A DNA stretch of 64,000 nt. Source: Paenibacillus borealis (lineage in GTDB: Bacteria; Bacillota; Bacilli; Paenibacillales; Paenibacillaceae). The notes beneath the pieces are model-generated. The model saw nothing but the letters and a program-made list of their open reading frames with translations. It searched no databases and had not been told where the DNA came from. Made by a program: the position numbers and the translations under genes. Position 1 is the stretch's first letter. The number at the start of each line of letters is the position of its first letter. This document shows, piece by piece, positions 16,380-23,615 of this stretch. The stretch covers positions 4,836,001 to 4,900,000 of the forward strand of contig NZ_CP009285.1 of assembly GCF_000758665.1 (NCBI RefSeq), written 5' to 3'.

Positions 16380-17660
16380 CTATTCCTCCTTCCCTGTCAG
16401 GAAATAAATCGTATCAAGCTGGAAGGTGTCGGCCGCTGCCTTCACTTCTTCCGCTCCAATGTGGTCTACCTGATCCATCAGTTCCTGTGCAGAACGGTCT
16501 TTGCCGGATAACTGGCGGTTGAAATCAAACGAAATCATCTCAAATGCGGAATCCTGAATTTCGGATAAAAGGTTGCGGATCATCGCCTTGGTCTGGCTCA
16601 GCTCCAGATCACTGATATTGCCGGCCTTCAGCTCATCCAGCTGCTTGCGGATAATATCAACGGCCTTGCCGTAATTTTGGGTCTCAATGCCCGACTGAAT
16701 CGTCCCGATCCCCTTGTGTCCGTCATAACGGGAGGAGGCATAATAGGCCAGGCTCTCTTTCTCACGCACGTTGACGAACAGCTTCGAGTGCGGATATCCG
16801 CCGAGGATGCCGTTGTACATTAACGCAGAGGCGTATCTGTCGTCCTTGTAGGTGATTGAGGTGCGCAGACCCATATTCAGCTTGCCTTGATTGACATCCA
16901 GCTTCTCCTCCACCGTCCGCACTTCCGTAACCGTTACCGGGGTGAAGTCCGAGGTGTACGGCGCAGATTCGGAATGATGGGCGCGGCCGAAGTTGGCGAT
17001 AACCAGCTTCTCCACTTCCTCCGGTGTAGTATCACCCACCACATACAGATCAAGTGTCGCTCCATTCAGCCAGGAGTTATAGGACTGGTACAGCGATTCC
17101 GGTGTGATGGCATCCAGGTCGGCTCTTTGTCCGAGCGGATGCAGACGATAAGGTTCCCGGCGGCACATTTCCTCAATGCAGCGTTCTGCCGCATAGCGGA
17201 TTTTATCGTTCACGATCGCTTCCAGCTTCTTGCGGACGGTTTCGCGTTCTGTCGCTACATAAGAAGCGCGGAAGCTTCCATCCTCAAGCAAAGGCCGGGT
17301 CAATACTTCGCCCAGAAAAGCGAATGATTCTCCGAGCAGGCTCTCCTTGCTCTGTACAAAGGAATCATTGATCGTGTCCATCCGGAACTGCACGATCTGA
17401 TAATCGCCGCGTTTGTAAATGTCGAAGCCGAAACCGGCACCGTAAAGCTCCTCAAGGCGTTCGCGGAACTGGGTGGTTTCGGGGTAGGATGCTGTGCCCC
17501 GGCGGAGCACAAAAGGAACCAGCGCTGTAGGGGTGACGGTATTTTCGTCAAGCGGAACGCCGGCATAAAGTGAAATGGCGAACGTCTTGAACGCCTTGGT
17601 AGGCAGAACGTGTATGCGCATGCCTGCAGCGCTGCCATGTTGAAATCCATTATTTGTCAA
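16380..17660 (-). CDS. ymfF: YmfF, M16 family peptidase-like protein without catalytic motif
   Basis: 426-residue M16-fold protein. Where active members have HxxEH, this protein has PFVLRRG (after ENTVTPTALV), so zinc binding is lost; the C-terminal M16 domain (ETQNYGKAVDIIRKQL, LSQTKAMIRNLLSE) is intact. The frame is open to 17702, but AAAGGAG eight bases before TTG at 17660 decides the start. It precedes ymfH with two bases between stop and start. A partner or substrate-gating role for YmfH is plausible. Confidence 0.93.
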   Translation of the reverse strand: MTNNGFQHGSAAGMRIHVLPTKAFKTFAISLYAGVPLDENTVTPTALVPFVLRRGTASYPETTQFRERLEELYGAGFGFDIYKRGDYQIVQFRMDTINDSFVQSKESLLGESFAFLGEVLTRPLLEDGSFRASYVATERETVRKKLEAIVNDKIRYAAERCIEEMCRREPYRLHPLGQRADLDAITPESLYQSYNSWLNGATLDLYVVGDTTPEEVEKLVIANFGRAHHSESAPYTSDFTPVTVTEVRTVEEKLDVNQGKLNMGLRTSITYKDDRYASALMYNGILGGYPHSKLFVNVREKESLAYYASSRYDGHKGIGTIQSGIETQNYGKAVDIIRKQLDELKAGNISDLELSQTKAMIRNLLSEIQDSAFEMISFDFNRQLSGKDRSAQELMDQVDHIGAEEVKAAADTFQLDTIYFLTGKEE

Positions 17661-17746
17661 GTCCAAAACTCCTTTGCGGCGTGGATAGATGCTATACAAC
17701 AAGTTTATGAAGTATTATCCATTCTAAACCATTCCAAAGTAAGGAA

Positions 17747-17773
17747 GCAACCGGAAGACAGTGCACCGGTTGC
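17747..17773 (-). terminator. Possible terminator after sleB
   Basis: A GCAACCGG/CCGGTTGC stem lies 70 bp downstream of sleB. It is followed on the minus strand by TTCCTTACTTT, a weak U-tract. Confidence 0.5.
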
Positions 17774-17844
17774 TCTCAGAAAAGATTTATACGGACGCTG
17801 TCATGCTGCCATTAATGCCTTGCTGTGCAAAAACATTCCTACAG

Positions 17845-18711
17845 CTACATACAGAAAATATGCTCACCTATCGTCTTCACCTGCGGACGGCTCCATATCC
17901 ACTTGGAAGTAGCTGTCTTGGGATTGAAGTAATAGAGGCAGCCGCCGGAAGGGTCCCAGCCGTTAAGCGCCTGCTGCACTGCCTTGCGCGCCTGTTCATT
18001 TGGCTCCAGATAGATCTGACCGTCAGCAACAGCCGTGAAGGCCCCCGGTTGAAAAATCACCCCCGAAGGCGTATTGGGAAAGCTCGGCGATTTGACCCGG
18101 TTGAGAATAACCGCCGCCACCGCTACCTGTCCTTCAAACGGCTCCCCGCGCGATTCACCGTAAACGGCATTAGCCATGATTTTCAGATCATTTTCAGACA
18201 GCCCCATCGTGTTGCCGGAAGACAGCTCTGCTGTATTCGTATTGGCTGTATCATTCTTTTTTGCCGCCGTTCCGGAAGATGTATCTTTTTGGGCGGTAGA
18301 AGTTTTAGGCTCCGTAGGTTTCCAGGCTGTTGTTGCATTGTACAGTTTGAGCTTTGTTTTGGCGCCAACAACTCCGTCGGATTTCAAGCCGAATTTCCAC
18401 TGGAACCAGGTGACGGCATTTTTGGTCTTGGCTCCGAACTGGCTGTCAATAGCACCGGCATAATACCCAAGATGCTTAAGTCTCCCCTGCAGTTCATACA
18501 CATCCTGTCCGGAAGATCCAAGTTTAAGCGGCGTTGTCCCGAAAGCGGGCAAAGCCTCTTCTCCTTCGTCAGGAATTTCAGTTATACCTGGTGCTGCTGC
18601 ATACGATTGGGCGTAAGTCACGCCGCGATCTTCAAAGAATACGCCGGCAAACGGTGCGGCGGCCAAGGCCAGGGTTAATACGGCAAAGATCCACTGCTTA
18701 TGTTTTGTCAT
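17845..18711 (-). CDS. sleB: Spore cortex-lytic enzyme SleB
   Basis: Lytic transglycosylase that degrades muramic-lactam-containing spore cortex during germination. It has an N-terminal signal sequence (about 1-35, ending ...TYAQS), a peptidoglycan-binding domain (about 60-120: LKLGSSGQDVYELQGRLKHLGYY), a Thr/Lys/Asn-rich linker, and a C-terminal SleB/CwlJ hydrolase domain from about residue 170 with the catalytic Glu in YGESRGEPFEGQ. 288 residues is the normal size. The usual partner ypeB is not adjacent. A candidate SigG promoter lies upstream, as expected for a forespore gene. Confidence 0.95.
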   Translation of the reverse strand: MTKHKQWIFAVLTLALAAAPFAGVFFEDRGVTYAQSYAAAPGITEIPDEGEEALPAFGTTPLKLGSSGQDVYELQGRLKHLGYYAGAIDSQFGAKTKNAVTWFQWKFGLKSDGVVGAKTKLKLYNATTAWKPTEPKTSTAQKDTSSGTAAKKNDTANTNTAELSSGNTMGLSENDLKIMANAVYGESRGEPFEGQVAVAAVILNRVKSPSFPNTPSGVIFQPGAFTAVADGQIYLEPNEQARKAVQQALNGWDPSGGCLYYFNPKTATSKWIWSRPQVKTIGEHIFCM

Positions 18712-18761
18712 AGGGGTTCGCTCTACCTTTCTCTTGTAAGTTCTGCATGAATGGCTAAAGT

Positions 18762-18791
18762 TATTATGACGACTGACAAGACATCCTATGC
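18762..18791 (-). promoter_or_regulatory. Candidate SigG (forespore) promoter of sleB
   Basis: Minus-strand GCATAG (fits GnATnR) is followed after 17 bp by CATAATA (fits CATnnTA). It lies about 50 bp upstream of sleB. B. subtilis sleB is SigG-dependent. Confidence 0.6.
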
Positions 18792-18820
18792 ATTACGTAA
18801 GACTGGCAAGAGTAAATCCA

Positions 18821-18850
18821 TTGCAAATGAGAACGATTATCAACTATACT
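18821..18850 (+). promoter_or_regulatory. Fur-controlled promoter of the AraC-type regulator gene
   Basis: TTGCAA (18821-18826), an 18-bp spacer and TATACT (18845-18850). The spacer contains the Fur-box-like TGAGAACGATTATCA (18828-18842), which matches the 7-1-7 consensus TGATAATNATTATCA at 12 of 14 positions. Confidence 0.75.
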
Positions 18851-18883
18851 TGGACTATGAACCAACGGGAGTTGAGAAGAATC

Positions 18884-20857
18884 ATGAATCTGAAGGACCA
18901 TATCGTACTGTGGAACCATGCTTTAATAGAAGTTATTGATATCCGCAAGGCCACTTTCACTTCGGGAGAACCTCCGCTGCTGTACCGCCTTCCAGCCAGT
19001 ACATATATGTATGTCGTCCGCGGCACTGCAAGTGTGCTTATAGATGAAATTCCATTTGAAATCGGCGGTGCCGGTGTGATTCACGGCGGTAAAGGCACGA
19101 CGATTAAAGTGCTCCATACACAGGATATCCTGAATTATTACTTAATTTTGTACAGATCTACACTTAATCTTCCCGCACGCCGGAATCTTACAGCGCTTAT
19201 GGAGCGCAGCAGGCCTTTTACCGAGCCCTATCAGTTCACCCCGGGCAATCCGCTGCCGCTGTACGAAATCCTGACACGGATGTATGGCGAATGGCAAAAA
19301 GGCGGCGTCCTCGAACATCTGCATGCCAAAGCCTTGTTCTATCAGTGGGTTCACGAGCTGCTCCGTCAGCTGCATGCGCAGGATATCCAGCCCCTCAAAG
19401 CGGATTCGCTGGACCAGGCAGTACGCTACATGCACGACAGTTACAGCAAACCCTTCACGCTGGATGCACTCGCCGGCGCACTCGGAACGAGCCCGAGAAC
19501 ATTATCGAGATTATTCCGGATGAGGCTTCAGACCAGCCCTGCCCAGTATATGATTCAGATCCGTATGGACAAAGCCCGTGAGCTGCTGCTGAACACAGAG
19601 GCCACACTGCATGATATTGCTGTTGCTGTCGGCTACCCGGATGCTTATTCCTTTGGGAAAATGTTCAAGAAGTACTTCGGCTCCTCGCCCGTAAGGTACA
19701 AAAATTCCTTGCATGAAGCATATAAATGGCCGGATGTGCCAACTGCCGTGTCCGCTTATGACATTGTCCAGGAAGACACTCTCCGATATATTGATGATGA
19801 TAATCATTATCAATATAATCTAAAAGGAGCGTCACCCATGTTCAGAACCGCTAGACCATCCCTAATGCTTACCTTGTTGTTATGCTTCACCATAGTGTTA
19901 AGCGCATGTTCCGGAGGAACAGCCAATAACTCCGCTGCAGGCAGCAGCAATACGCCTTCCGCTTCTCCCGCAGCGACGGCAGCCGCTACAACATCTCCGG
20001 ATAACACTTCAGCAGAAGCACAGACCCGGACCATCTCCACAGTCAAAGGAGACATAGAGGTTCCGGCCAATCCCCAGCGTGTGGTAGTACTGTATCTGCT
20101 GGGCGATGTCCTCGCGCTCGGGGTGAAACCGATTGGTGTATCCGATGTATCGGAAGGCGCGGCCTTTGAGAGCGAACTGAAGGATGTACAGAAGCTGGGC
20201 AACTGGTTCGAGGCTAGTCCTGAAGTTGTACTCTCGCTGGAGCCAGATCTGATTATTGTTCCTTCTGAGGAAACCTATGAAGCGCTGCATGACATTGCAC
20301 CGACTGTGCTGGTTCCTTATGAGAAGATGACAACCGATGAGCGGGTCGGCTTTATTGGACAGATTTTTGGTAAGGAAGACCAGGCCGCCAGCCTGTTGGA
20401 CAACTTCAATGCCAAAGTGGAAGACAGTAAGCAGAAGCTGCAGGAAGCTGGAATTCTCGGATCTACCATCTCCATTATGGAAGGCGGCGCAGACCGCAGT
20501 ATGGTAGTGGTCATGAGCAAACAATACGGCCGGGGTTCACAGGTCATTTATGAATATCTTGGGATGAAGGCGCCTGAGCTTGTTCAGCAAAAAATCGATA
20601 GCACGACCGACGTTGGCGGTGAATCCGTCTCGTTTGAAGTACTGGCCGATTACAGCGGAGACTATATCTTCCGTTCTTCCTATGACGGGATGGCTGATCT
20701 GACCGGGGACCCGCTATGGAACAGCATTCCGGCTGTCAAAGAAGGACGAATGCTGGAGATCGACTTCGGATTATCCTATTATAGCGATATCTATTCGCTT
20801 AACGCCCAGCTTGATTTCATTGTTGACAACCTGCTTGCAGCCCCCCGGGTGAAGTAA
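18884..20857 (+). CDS. AraC-family iron-uptake regulator reading in frame into a siderophore-binding lipoprotein domain
   Basis: One uninterrupted frame of 657 codons. Residues about 1-170 form a cupin-like sensor, about 175-280 an AraC helix-turn-helix pair (FTLDALAGALGTSPRTLSRLF and IAVAVGYPDAYSFGKMFKKYF), and from residue 319 a complete lipoprotein begins. No stop codon separates them. The start chosen is ATG 18884, 12 bases after GGAG; the frame is also open to 18788. B. subtilis Btr is a known fusion of an AraC domain with a siderophore-binding domain, but Btr has no signal peptide or lipobox. Here a Fur-box promoter, ribosome binding site and ATG lie inside the frame, so two products are likely. 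Orientation is opposite to its neighbours. Confidence 0.75.
   Translation: MNLKDHIVLWNHALIEVIDIRKATFTSGEPPLLYRLPASTYMYVVRGTASVLIDEIPFEIGGAGVIHGGKGTTIKVLHTQDILNYYLILYRSTLNLPARRNLTALMERSRPFTEPYQFTPGNPLPLYEILTRMYGEWQKGGVLEHLHAKALFYQWVHELLRQLHAQDIQPLKADSLDQAVRYMHDSYSKPFTLDALAGALGTSPRTLSRLFRMRLQTSPAQYMIQIRMDKARELLLNTEATLHDIAVAVGYPDAYSFGKMFKKYFGSSPVRYKNSLHEAYKWPDVPTAVSAYDIVQEDTLRYIDDDNHYQYNLKGASPMFRTARPSLMLTLLLCFTIVLSACSGGTANNSAAGSSNTPSASPAATAAATTSPDNTSAEAQTRTISTVKGDIEVPANPQRVVVLYLLGDVLALGVKPIGVSDVSEGAAFESELKDVQKLGNWFEASPEVVLSLEPDLIIVPSEETYEALHDIAPTVLVPYEKMTTDERVGFIGQIFGKEDQAASLLDNFNAKVEDSKQKLQEAGILGSTISIMEGGADRSMVVVMSKQYGRGSQVIYEYLGMKAPELVQQKIDSTTDVGGESVSFEVLADYSGDYIFRSSYDGMADLTGDPLWNSIPAVKEGRMLEIDFGLSYYSDIYSLNAQLDFIVDNLLAAPRVK
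19764..19812 (+). promoter_or_regulatory. Internal promoter with perfect Fur box for the siderophore-binding lipoprotein
   Basis: TTGTCC (19764-19769), a 17-bp spacer and TATATT (19787-19792). Immediately downstream is TGATAATCATTATCA (19798-19812), a perfect 7-1-7 Fur palindrome covering the expected transcription start. AAAGGAG at 19823-19829 then precedes the ATG at 19838. Confidence 0.85.
19838..20857 (+). CDS. Iron-siderophore ABC transporter substrate-binding lipoprotein
   Basis: 339-residue extracytoplasmic solute-binding protein of the FeuA/FhuD (TroA-like) class. A type II signal peptide ends in LSAC with the lipidated Cys at residue 24, followed by a Ser/Ala/Thr-rich tether to about residue 65. 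The binding domain starts at VPANPQRVVVLYLLGDVLALG, with the typical EPDLIIVPS segment. AAAGGAG eight bases before ATG and its own Fur-box promoter argue for independent translation. The frame upstream is open and belongs to the AraC regulator. Permease and ATPase genes are not nearby, so it must work with a transporter encoded elsewhere. The exact siderophore is unknown. Confidence 0.9.
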   Translation: MFRTARPSLMLTLLLCFTIVLSACSGGTANNSAAGSSNTPSASPAATAAATTSPDNTSAEAQTRTISTVKGDIEVPANPQRVVVLYLLGDVLALGVKPIGVSDVSEGAAFESELKDVQKLGNWFEASPEVVLSLEPDLIIVPSEETYEALHDIAPTVLVPYEKMTTDERVGFIGQIFGKEDQAASLLDNFNAKVEDSKQKLQEAGILGSTISIMEGGADRSMVVVMSKQYGRGSQVIYEYLGMKAPELVQQKIDSTTDVGGESVSFEVLADYSGDYIFRSSYDGMADLTGDPLWNSIPAVKEGRMLEIDFGLSYYSDIYSLNAQLDFIVDNLLAAPRVK

Positions 20858-20880
20858 TTCTGAATCAATCATTTCAAAAA

Positions 20881-20918
20881 AAAGAGATGGCCTCGTATTA
20901 TGCGGGCCATCTCTTTTT
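20881..20918. terminator. Bidirectional terminator between the lipoprotein gene and spoIIIE
   Basis: AAAGAGATGGCC/GGCCATCTCTTT arms with a 12-base loop have T-runs on both strands. It serves the two convergent genes. Confidence 0.92.
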
Positions 20919-20921
20919 GGG

Positions 20922-23615
20922 TTATGAACTGATTCTGCTATGCTGATACTGTTCGAGGGACATCAGCACCTCACGCGGCTTGCTGCCCTCGTAAGGCCCG
21001 ATCACGCTTCTGGCCTCCATGGCATCGATTAACCGTGCAGCACGGGTGTAACCGACGCGCATGCGCCGCTGAAGCAGCGACACCGAGGCCTGCTTGGCTT
21101 CCAGCACAATCTGGACGGCCTGTTCATATAATTCATCCTGCGGTTCCTGGTCTTCCGATATGGAGTCATCAACCTCAGGGACAAGGGATTCATCATAATT
21201 CGCTTCACCCTGGCTGCTTACATACTGCACGATCGTTTCGACTTCCTGATCGCTCATGAACGCGCCCTGGACACGGATCGGCTTGGAAGCTCCCATTGGC
21301 AGGAACAGCATATCCCCCCGTCCCAGCAGCTTCTCTGCACCCGGCATATCCAGAATCGTCCGTGAATCCACATTCGACGACACTCCGAAAGCTATCCGCG
21401 AAGGAATATTCGCCTTAATCAGTCCGGTAATGACGTCCACGGAAGGACGCTGTGTAGCGATGATCAGATGAATTCCCGCTGCCCGCGCCATCTGGGCAAG
21501 CCGGCAGATCGCGTCCTCGACATCATTCGCCGCCACCATCATCAGATCGGCAAGCTCGTCCACAATTACTACAATGTAGGGCAATACCGCTGCAGGATTA
21601 TCTTTCATTAGAGTATTATAACCTTCCATATTACGCGTGCCTGACTTGGAGAACAGCTCATAACGCTTCTCCATCTCCACCACTATCTTCTTCAAGGCAA
21701 GACTGGCCCGCTTGGGATCGGTAACCACCGGAGCAAGCAGATGTGGGATGCCATTATATACATTCAGCTCGACCATCTTAGGGTCGACCATGAGGAACTT
21801 CACTTCATTAGGCTTGGCTTTATAAAGGATGCTGGTAATAATGCCGTTAATGCAGACAGACTTACCGGAACCGGTAGCTCCTGCTACGAGCAAATGGGGC
21901 ATCTTGGCCAGGTTACCAATAATCGTCTGACCGGATATATCCCGGCCGAAGGCAATCGATAACCGCGACTCTGCCTCCTGAAAAATCTGCGTCTCCATTA
22001 CTTCACGCATGGTTACAATTGAGACTTCGGAGTTCGGCACTTCAATACCGATGGCAGACTTACCCGGAATCGGTGCTTCCATCCGGATATCCTTGGCTGC
22101 CAGCGCCAGCGCGATATCATCCGTAAGATTGACGATCCGGCTGACCTTCACACCGATATCCGGCTGAATTTCATACCGGGTAACAGCCGGGCCCCGGACC
22201 ACTTCCAGCACCTTCGCCCTGACACCGAAGCTCTCGAGTGTGGCTTCCAGCTTGCGGGCCGTCTGCATGTAGTCATTCTGGTCTCCAGCCTTGCCGCCGT
22301 TGTTGGGCTTCGCCAGCAGGCGGAAGGATGGCAGCTTGTACGGTTTGGGAGGCGGCGGTGGCGGAATTGCCGGAATCACTTCGCCATTTTCTGCCGTTTC
22401 CAGCAGCCCGTCCAGCTCTACCGGAAGTCCGGCCTCAGCGGATTCACCCTCCGCTGCAGGATATCCGGCAGCAGAGGACAGAGCCTCATCTCCCGCGCCT
22501 ATAACAGCGCCGCCGCGTGCAGCCGGAGAGAACTCACTCCACTCCTCCCGGTCCTCCGCATTCAGCCCTTCCGAGCGGATATGCTCGAAGAAGTCGCGGA
22601 TAATCGGTGTAACCGGCTCCACATCCTCCTCGGGGAAGTCATCCTCGCCGAGATCCTCCGGCGGCATTCCCCTGCCAGCCGCAAGCCCGGATATAATCGG
22701 ACCGTTGCGCGGTTCTGTCAGGATTACATCCGGCAGTTCCCCGTCACCATGCTCTTCCGTCCCGGACTGCTGCTCATTACGGGCAGAGCCGCTGAACCAG
22801 CCGGCCACTCTTCCCAGCAGGTTCGGCTGTGCACGTCTGGGCAGCTGTTGATTATTCTCTTCTTCATCGTCTTCGTAGTAGTCATCATCATCTGCCGGCT
22901 GCGGTGCAGGAGGCGTGCTGTTCCTTGTGGCTCTGGGCACTACCGGAACCGCTGCAGGGCGGTTAGCTGATCTGAGCTTGATTCCTTCCACCAGCTTAAC
23001 CGCTCTTACGCGGAGCAGTGTAAACAGCTCCACATACGACAGATTGGTAATCAGCATGAAGCTGATCGCCAGCAGAACAATCATAAGCAGCTTGGCGCCC
23101 AGATTGCCGAACAGCCACAGGAGAGCAGCATACTCCAGTGCTCCGATATATCCTCCGCTGATGTCCTTGCCCAGCATGTACACACTGCTCTCACCGGCGC
23201 CCGGTGACAGTGAACCCGAGAGGTCATTATGTATTTGGGCCAGCACATTACCCGGATGCAGCATTCCAATCGGCCCCAGCTTCTGCTGCATAGCCGAAAT
23301 CGTACTCATCAGGCACATGGACAGCAGCAGCAATAGCCCGCCTGTATATCTGCTGTTCCAGGTAGATGGCCATTTCCGGTGAATCATGACCATCAAACCA
23401 TAAAAAATGCCGGCCAGCGGCAGCACAAAATAGAATCTGCCGAGTAAATATCCCGCCATGCTTGAAAGTGAGCGCCCAACAGCCGCTTCACCTGACAATG
23501 CTATGACAGAAATAGTGATTAGCAGAATTCCATAGATTTCATATTTTAAAACGCTGCCCAGCAGCGCTTTTTTCTTTTTCTTTTTTCTTTTTTTAGCCAC
23601 GCCAGCCACCCCCAC
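20922..23615 (-). CDS. spoIIIE: DNA translocase SpoIIIE/FtsK
   Basis: 897-residue septal DNA pump that moves the chromosome into the forespore. An extremely Lys-rich N-terminus is followed by about four membrane helices (residues about 20-190), an acidic Pro-rich linker (about 225-420), the RecA-like motor with [14 protein letters not shown] (Walker A) and [12 protein letters not shown] (Walker B), and a C-terminal gamma winged helix ([22 protein letters not shown]). The first start is GTG 23615; a second GTG five codons later is equally possible. The length exceeds B. subtilis SpoIIIE mainly because of the linker. Confidence 0.96.

Follow-up and report, generated by a model that had tools for sequence, protein, structure and literature searches.

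A regulator, a predicted internal Fur promoter and a siderophore-binding lipoprotein in one reading frame of Paenibacillus borealis

In membrane-bound regulators of the one-component type, among them ToxR and CadC, a single polypeptide combines a DNA-binding domain, one membrane helix and an outer sensor. The regulator Btr (YbbB) of Bacillus subtilis, whose target is feuA, has a FeuA-like sensory domain according to a passage of one report (PMC9609785), and part of another places feuA of B. pumilus under the control of both Fur and Btr, with btr located upstream (PMC3896406). Here we analyzed a 64,000-nucleotide stretch of Paenibacillus borealis DNA (contig NZ_CP009285.1, positions 4,836,001 to 4,900,000; hereafter the window), in which a single gene encodes an AraC-family regulator followed by a siderophore-binding lipoprotein, with a putative Fur-controlled promoter inside the coding sequence. 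No account of an AraC-lipoprotein architecture in a single frame was found in the open-access literature searched (one library, mainly its listings).

The single reading frame and its conservation

As a first-pass annotation of the sequence had claimed, the regulator and the lipoprotein form one unbroken frame, the stretch from 18788 up to the stop codon at 20855-20857 being free of stops (Table 1). ATG 18884 is likely the start codon, with relatives aligning from residue 1. In the encoded protein, Pfam places HTH_18 at residues 196-274 and Peripla_BP_2 at residues 407-627; the AraC/XylS double helix-turn-helix is present (HTH_18, 84.7 bits, cut-off 33.6; HTH_AraC, 53.2 bits, cut-off 26.6), as are Peripla_BP_2 (78.5 bits, cut-off 27.5) and a lipobox signal peptide, the lipobox being recognized by pattern. 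The Ala-Cys of the lipobox is kept in 38 of 38 aligned rows, which had been preselected among lipobox-bearing forms. When the sequence profile of the binding domain was compared with solved structures, 3hxp, 3g9q and 3tny (YfiY) were the nearest, and a fold search ranked FhuD2 (4b8y) first, with 3hxp and 3tny in the top six. An AlphaFold2 model from the 38-row alignment is confident for residues 1-280, the AraC part, and for the binding domain at 379-655; between them lie a linker of low confidence (282-324), a lone helix corresponding to the signal peptide (325-342) and a second stretch of low confidence (343-378). The overall pTM of 0.46 means that the relative placement of the two domains is not predicted by this model.

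The whole frame recurs in Paenibacillus and Lysinibacillus relatives. Many genomes contain relatives that are full-length and unbroken, at 28-88% identity, and a class-wide search recovered the fused frame in other families of Bacilli as well. In a phylum-wide sample of 299 genomes, matches at 1e-100 or better were obtained in 3, all from the family of the window. We also carried out a search that did not demand the fusion, using a profile of the AraC half alone on 61 genomes of the Paenibacillus group, with up to 41 candidates scored per genome. This gave 102 matches in 30 of the 61 genomes, 86 of them at or above 234 bits. According to a tally made by hand, 82 of these 86 lie in unbroken frames of 582-718 aa and two are shorter (459 and 464 aa) yet extend beyond the lipobox, while the other two are considered below; five of the 86 lack a lipobox. 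None of the 86 terminates between the helix-turn-helix and the lipobox or binding domain, so that the interdomain stop for which the first-pass annotation had proposed to inspect orthologues was not encountered among these close matches. Below 234 bits, the search returned 13 more lipobox-less fusions (one cut short, 358 aa) and 3 AraC genes that stand alone and are of a different kind. In one Paenibacillus-group genome, as many as nine sequences matched the AraC half, including one truncated and one signal-less form.

Over all loci, 123 distinct AraC hits were collected, of which 100 reach a lipobox in frame, 19 enter a lipobox-less binding domain and 4 stop earlier, the latter being L161, L162, L163 and a broken second copy of L009. 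In the 100 lipobox-bearing linkers, stops occur 388 and 649 times in the other two frames, which leaves these frames closed in 98 and in all 100 linkers, respectively. The broken copy, adjacent to the first (L009:4970-6823), has its linker and binding domain disrupted by a deletion and a frameshift; the binding-domain half matching it is intact in L011.

A predicted nested promoter, a second start and an embedded repeat

All the elements that the first-pass annotation had listed within the frame (TTGTCC-17-TATATT, a Fur palindrome, AAAGGAG, ATG 19838 and LSAC) were found, the spacer between the internal −35 and −10 hexamers being 17 nt. Tyr302, whose codon lies inside the −10, is shared by 90% or more of the 38 aligned rows. 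A linker Fur box matching at 11/14 or better occurs in 98 of the 100 lipobox-bearing relatives, in a single phase in all 98, and is read in frame as xxT GAT AAT CAT TAT CA or a near variant; it was not found in L073 and L091, the latter containing a run of N. Control coding stretches from the same genes never scored above 10/14 (0 of 99 at 11 or more). At the box codons for D, N, H and Y, the third position is T in 336 of 342 cases (T:C 336:6), versus 4425 of 6547 (T:C 4425:2122) for the same codons elsewhere in the same genes.

Stand-alone lipoprotein genes served as the unfused comparison for the phase of the box. Of 38 with a Fur box, 21 share the phase of the fusions, 9 have the box in the phase in which the frame would be closed, and 8 have it in the remaining phase. 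The frame-closing phase is missing from the 100-row set by construction, and the test was therefore repeated without it, giving 98:0 for fused versus 21:8 for stand-alone genes (p 3e-6); the rows are related, so this and the other p-value given below overstate their independence. The AraC genes of L161-L163 had been tried as unfused controls with other Fur-box phases and were dropped, since another open frame follows them. At these three loci, a distant AraC gene is followed by a Fur box and then by a gene that by eye, with no family search, resembles a luciferase-type monooxygenase.

Regarding the second product, all 100 relatives have an internal start, 21-27 residues ahead of the lipobox Cys (ATG 86, GTG 12, TTG 2), and the full 6/6 ribosome-site word precedes it in 69 of 100, against 0-4 of 100 at four control positions. 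Since the control positions also yield some start codon in 71-81 of 100 rows, the ribosome site is the stronger evidence for a second product. Of 99 relatives, 82 also have a Fur box matching at 11/14 or better ahead of the first start, a score reached by 0 of 99 control coding stretches. These features suggest that, as had been proposed from the sequence, the one locus may give rise both to a fusion of regulator and lipoprotein and to a free lipoprotein from the internal Fur promoter.

The DNA of this region is constrained beyond the promoter itself. Among 84 close pairs (64 sequences), about 0.30 of same-residue codons differ along the frame, and this synonymous divergence falls to 0.15 or less around the Fur box, in windows of 9 codons whose centres run from codon −26 to codon +10, an interval that extends well upstream of the internal −35. 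In this interval we observed a direct repeat with a spacing of 22 nt; because 22 is not a multiple of three, its two copies are read in different frames. In the linkers, the mean best match at this spacing is 6.78/10 versus 4.45 in control coding sequence, and a score of 8 or more is reached by 38% of linkers versus 1% of controls; when spacings from 11 to 33 were scanned, no other direct repeat stood out. Synonymous recoding of the linkers (200 trials) lowered the mean score to 5.03, with a maximum of 5.34, and 47 representatives less than 60% identical in the region gave the same peak at 22 nt (7.17). The resulting profile reads GtCcgrATattCCA, 8 nt, GtCcgrATattCCA, directly followed by the TTG of the −35. 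It was fitted on the same 98 rows, so that the 87 of 98 above threshold are given by construction; the fair tests are the profile-free scan of spacings, the synonymous recoding and the rows outside the profile, 25 of 27 of which exceed the 99% background level, many of the rows being mutually close.

The layout resembles that of paired AraC half-sites next to a −35. Outside the fused genes, the operator profile is found ahead of the separate lipoprotein gene beside signal-less regulators with a binding domain in 10 of 11 cases, and beside Btr-type regulators in 10 of 16, while it is absent from the 11 stand-alone lipoprotein genes examined away from a regulator. The operator was also sought at the first promoters of fused genes and was absent from all 99 (among random 270-nt windows, 5% would exceed the threshold). 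On the simplest interpretation, the embedded repeat is an AraC-type operator inside the coding frame, read by the AraC half of the same gene, because it tracks loci with an AraC-binding-domain regulator. The repeat (19728-19763), the first-promoter Fur box (18828-18842) and the conservation of the locus go beyond the first-pass annotation; also new are the collapse of synonymous divergence over the linker and the presence within the frame of what appears to be an AraC-type operator.

Table 1. Features of the fused gene, in coordinates of the window
Feature	Position	Strand	Evidence or remark
First-promoter Fur box, 12/14	18828..18842	+	ahead of first start codon
Single open reading frame, 657 aa	18884..20857	+	AraC regulator, linker, lipobox signal peptide, siderophore-binding domain
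AraC-family regulator half	18884..19711	+	HTH_18 5.3e-24, HTH_AraC 2.8e-14, plus alignment
Candidate operator, distal copy GGCCGGATGTGCCA	19728..19741	+	direct repeat, lag 22
Candidate operator, proximal copy GTCCGCTTATGACA, abutting −35	19750..19763	+	direct repeat, lag 22
Internal −35 hexamer TTGTCC	19764..19769	+	synonymous difference 0.01 (codon −12) and 0.05 (codon −11)
Internal −10 hexamer TATATT	19787..19792	+	read from sequence
Internal Fur box TGATAATCATTATCA, perfect 7-1-7 palindrome, 14/14	19798..19812	+	in-frame reading D-N-H-Y-Q
Internal ribosome-binding site AAAGGAG	19823..19829	+	read from sequence
Free lipoprotein, 339 aa, from internal ATG	19838..20857	+	predicted product
Lipoprotein signal peptide	19838..19909	+	lipobox LSAC at 19898-19909
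Siderophore-binding domain (Peripla_BP_2, FhuD/YfiY-like; ligand binding predicted)	20018..20848	+	6.8e-22
Intrinsic terminator, likely	20884..20918	+	GAGATGGCC / GGCCATCTC then T run, past stop codon; read from sequence

A possible circuit and its alternatives

From these features we consider it probable that a regulator gene, its target promoter and a receptor gene have merged into one frame, yielding a siderophore-responsive activator and, from the nested promoter, a free receptor. Under iron starvation, Fur would leave the first promoter and the full-length AraC activator would be made, with its C-terminal siderophore-binding domain as the sensor. Once a ferri-siderophore occupies this domain, the AraC half would bind, in the manner of Btr, the 22-bp repeat within its own coding sequence, next to the −35. 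Fur would also be released from the internal box, and the internal promoter would fire, its transcript having the ribosome site and start needed to produce the free lipoprotein as an uptake receptor. Fur would act as an iron gate on both promoters, and, since one binding domain would serve as sensor and as receptor, inducer and cargo would always match. The chain from ligand to activation is modelled on Btr as far as the passages cited above describe it; comparison among relatives supports the open frame, the one phase in which the Fur box lies, an internal start with its ribosome site, the constraint on the linker DNA, and the repeat with its occurrence at regulator loci.

Several observations weigh against this reading. 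Fused genes were the source of the AraC-half profile, and its 86 matches are therefore near kin of the fusions and no random sample of AraC genes, and two of the 86 have one stop inside the AraC half. The 0 stops in 6648 codons between the helix-turn-helix and the Cys of the 100 lipobox-bearing rows arise by construction, this set having been kept for a lipobox in the same frame. Upstream of the promoter the linker is loosely constrained as protein, with dN/dS values of 0.53, 0.34, 1.80 and 0.13 (four of seven clades, the fourth in part). The operator falls below threshold in 11 of the 98 training rows, in 2 of the 27 other rows, in one of the 11 lipoprotein genes beside signal-less regulators and in six of the 16 beside Btr-type regulators. 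Finally, a normal lipobox signal peptide should route the full-length protein to the membrane and to cutting, which fits ill with a purely cytoplasmic sensor. The signal peptide within the full-length protein looks functional by its sequence; either a fraction of this protein would stay cytoplasmic, or it would span the membrane, or it would be cut.

At L040 (genome G008) and L135 (G062), a stop lies in the AraC half, and from there the linker, the internal start and the lipoprotein half are open, as if the receptor alone were perhaps still needed.

A second explanation, which we hold to be possible and clearly less likely, is that the full-length protein spans the membrane, with the AraC half inside and the binding domain outside, and that the receptor signals across the membrane; signal peptidase II might then cleave it, yielding a regulator held in the membrane and a mature lipoprotein. 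The lipobox found in frame in most AraC hits (100 of 123) and the lone helix that AlphaFold2 sets between two low-confidence stretches agree with this arrangement, and the mean hydropathy before the lipobox is 2.05 in fused proteins versus 2.09 in free lipoproteins. However, the strongest 12-residue stretch is slightly less hydrophobic in the fused proteins (2.69 versus 2.86, p 6e-5), the internal start alone would account for retention of the signal, and more than one lineage has dropped the signal while keeping the junction of AraC and binding domain, implying that sensing there is independent of export. If the membrane form does exist, a whole ligand-induced receptor circuit would be contained in one frame, with the receptor as the sensor of a DNA-bound activator from which signal peptidase II could separate it, an idea that we put forward only tentatively. 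A weaker signal peptide that would enable dual location was also considered and rejected, since the mean hydropathy is the same as in free lipoproteins, though the best 12-mer is slightly lower.

It is improbable that the fusion is a mere by-product of the open frame, such that only the separate AraC regulator and lipoprotein matter and ribosomes run through. This explanation would agree with the weak constraint on the linker as protein upstream of the promoter, and with the promoter, Fur box and ribosome site constraining the remaining linker as DNA; nevertheless, no close AraC match ends between the helix-turn-helix and the lipobox or binding domain, and the other two linker frames are almost always closed. 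Moreover, forms that have neither lipobox nor internal promoter still join AraC to the binding domain, which argues for the fusion as a functional unit.

Slightly less probable again is that the embedded repeat is the site of another AraC regulator and that the fused AraC half acts elsewhere. These genomes encode many AraC regulators, and binding by the gene's own half is a prediction; against the involvement of another regulator, the repeat tracks fused or adjacent regulators and is absent from all 11 stand-alone lipoprotein genes, and the operator pattern of the window, allowing up to 3 mismatches, has a single match in the 8.16-Mb genome (more divergent sites were not sought). A recent loss of a stop codon, which the first-pass annotation had entertained, or a sequencing error in this genome can be dismissed, as nothing was found in its favour and full-length relatives at 28-88% identity are unbroken in many genomes, including 82 of the 86 close AraC matches.

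Forms without a signal peptide and comparison with known systems

The lipobox and the internal promoter were lost at least twice inside the family, on supported branches of the AraC tree, while the joined AraC and binding domains were retained. One such branch groups L083/L084 with L124 (support 89, within a branch of 98), and the other groups L194 with L042 and L193 (support 98). The trees were quick and unrooted, with long-branch warnings, and after thinning the window row was represented by its near ortholog L001. L087, which is signal-less, has retained a hydrophobic stretch and, in the old phase, a Fur-like sequence scoring 11/14. L194 (genome G208) lies outside the family of the window; its lipobox Cys is replaced and an internal start is not evident, which in sequence terms is a separate loss of the lipoprotein signature. 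The fusion can thus apparently persist as a sensor without export.

Wider flanks were inspected for 13 signal-less loci. In 11 of them, a Fur-controlled lipoprotein gene lies close to the regulator but separate from it, and the flanking stretch examined for L221 and L222 contained no such gene. At L019, the binding domain of the regulator is sister to that of the neighbouring free lipoprotein (support 83), nested in the fused clade, as expected if a fused gene had been copied and each copy had kept one task; the AraC tree gives L019 no settled position. In L219, L223 and L227, lipoprotein genes beside signal-less regulators, the upstream frame reads DNENHYHTKGG through the Fur box with no fused regulator, and this reading is possibly a relic of the fusion. 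The genome of the window (G000) itself also encodes a second fused protein with a lipobox (636 aa), a signal-less form accompanied by a lipoprotein gene of its own, and a regulator of 586 aa that resembles Btr and falls below the Btr cut-off; L082, L089/L090 and L209 are its further loci.

As to the surroundings of the fused genes, in L014 (Paenibacillus selenitireducens) two FecCD permease genes and a membrane gene of an ABC transporter come directly after a tandem pair of fused genes, and tandem pairs also occur in L017 and L018 (Lysinibacillus). In all, 20 flanking proteins from 13 loci were scanned; the remaining 17 showed no link to siderophore transport, three of them lacking any Pfam match. 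Positions 17500-22000 of the window contain no Rfam family at gathering score, and a comparison with plasmids gave no near match and, at the protein level, only partial matches to the binding domain.

If the proposed circuit is correct, the locus would be a compact, autonomous and copyable unit, in which gene duplication brings a new siderophore specificity together with its own sensor, operator and receptor; the presence of up to nine AraC-half matches in one genome fits this idea. It would also offer a natural example of coding constraint acting on an operator and a Fur promoter, and the division of labour between a sensor copy without signal and a receptor copy without AraC would make the origin of Btr-type sensors testable. 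Automatic annotation is expected to assign one protein name to such a gene, missing the second product and its promoter.

The membrane-bound regulators ToxR and CadC would match the layout of the window protein if the full-length product is inserted in the membrane; they are not known to have either a lipobox or a nested promoter producing the sensor alone. The C-terminal part of the protein resembles lipoproteins of the FhuD/YfiY type, which share the Peripla_BP_2 domain, the signal peptide and the lipobox. Of 41 stand-alone genes of this type examined, 38 have a Fur box ahead of the start, as occurs at the internal start of the window, but the stand-alone genes have no in-frame regulator upstream and, in the 11 examined away from a regulator, no operator.

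The closest likeness is to Btr, in which an AraC helix-turn-helix is likewise followed by a siderophore-binding domain. The window protein is not Btr itself: it scores 51.7 bits against the Btr model NF049932 (equivalog cut-off 900), with the best stretch at residues 136-273, it has a signal peptide and lipobox, and the 11 Btr-type rows form their own branch with a support of 100 in both the AraC and the binding-domain trees. Btr-type proteins lack the linker, the signal peptide and the lipobox, all three of which the window protein has. The idea that the locus is an intermediate toward Btr, raised in the first-pass annotation, finds partial support as far as kinship is concerned, since an operator of the same type and layout is found at 10 of 16 Btr-type loci and signal-less forms arose repeatedly in the family; the direction of change is not established by an unrooted tree in which the Btr-type rows are separate and well supported. 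Only one genome of 151 has a Btr above the NCBIfam cut-off; at its locus L196, the same 22-bp operator lies 71 nt from the Fur box before the lipoprotein gene, compared with 70 nt in the window. For Btr, the target lipoprotein is encoded apart from the regulator and has a binding domain of its own, whereas in the window the regulator, operator, promoter and target share one frame. By analogy, the locus would work like a pair of Btr and its target folded into a single reading frame.

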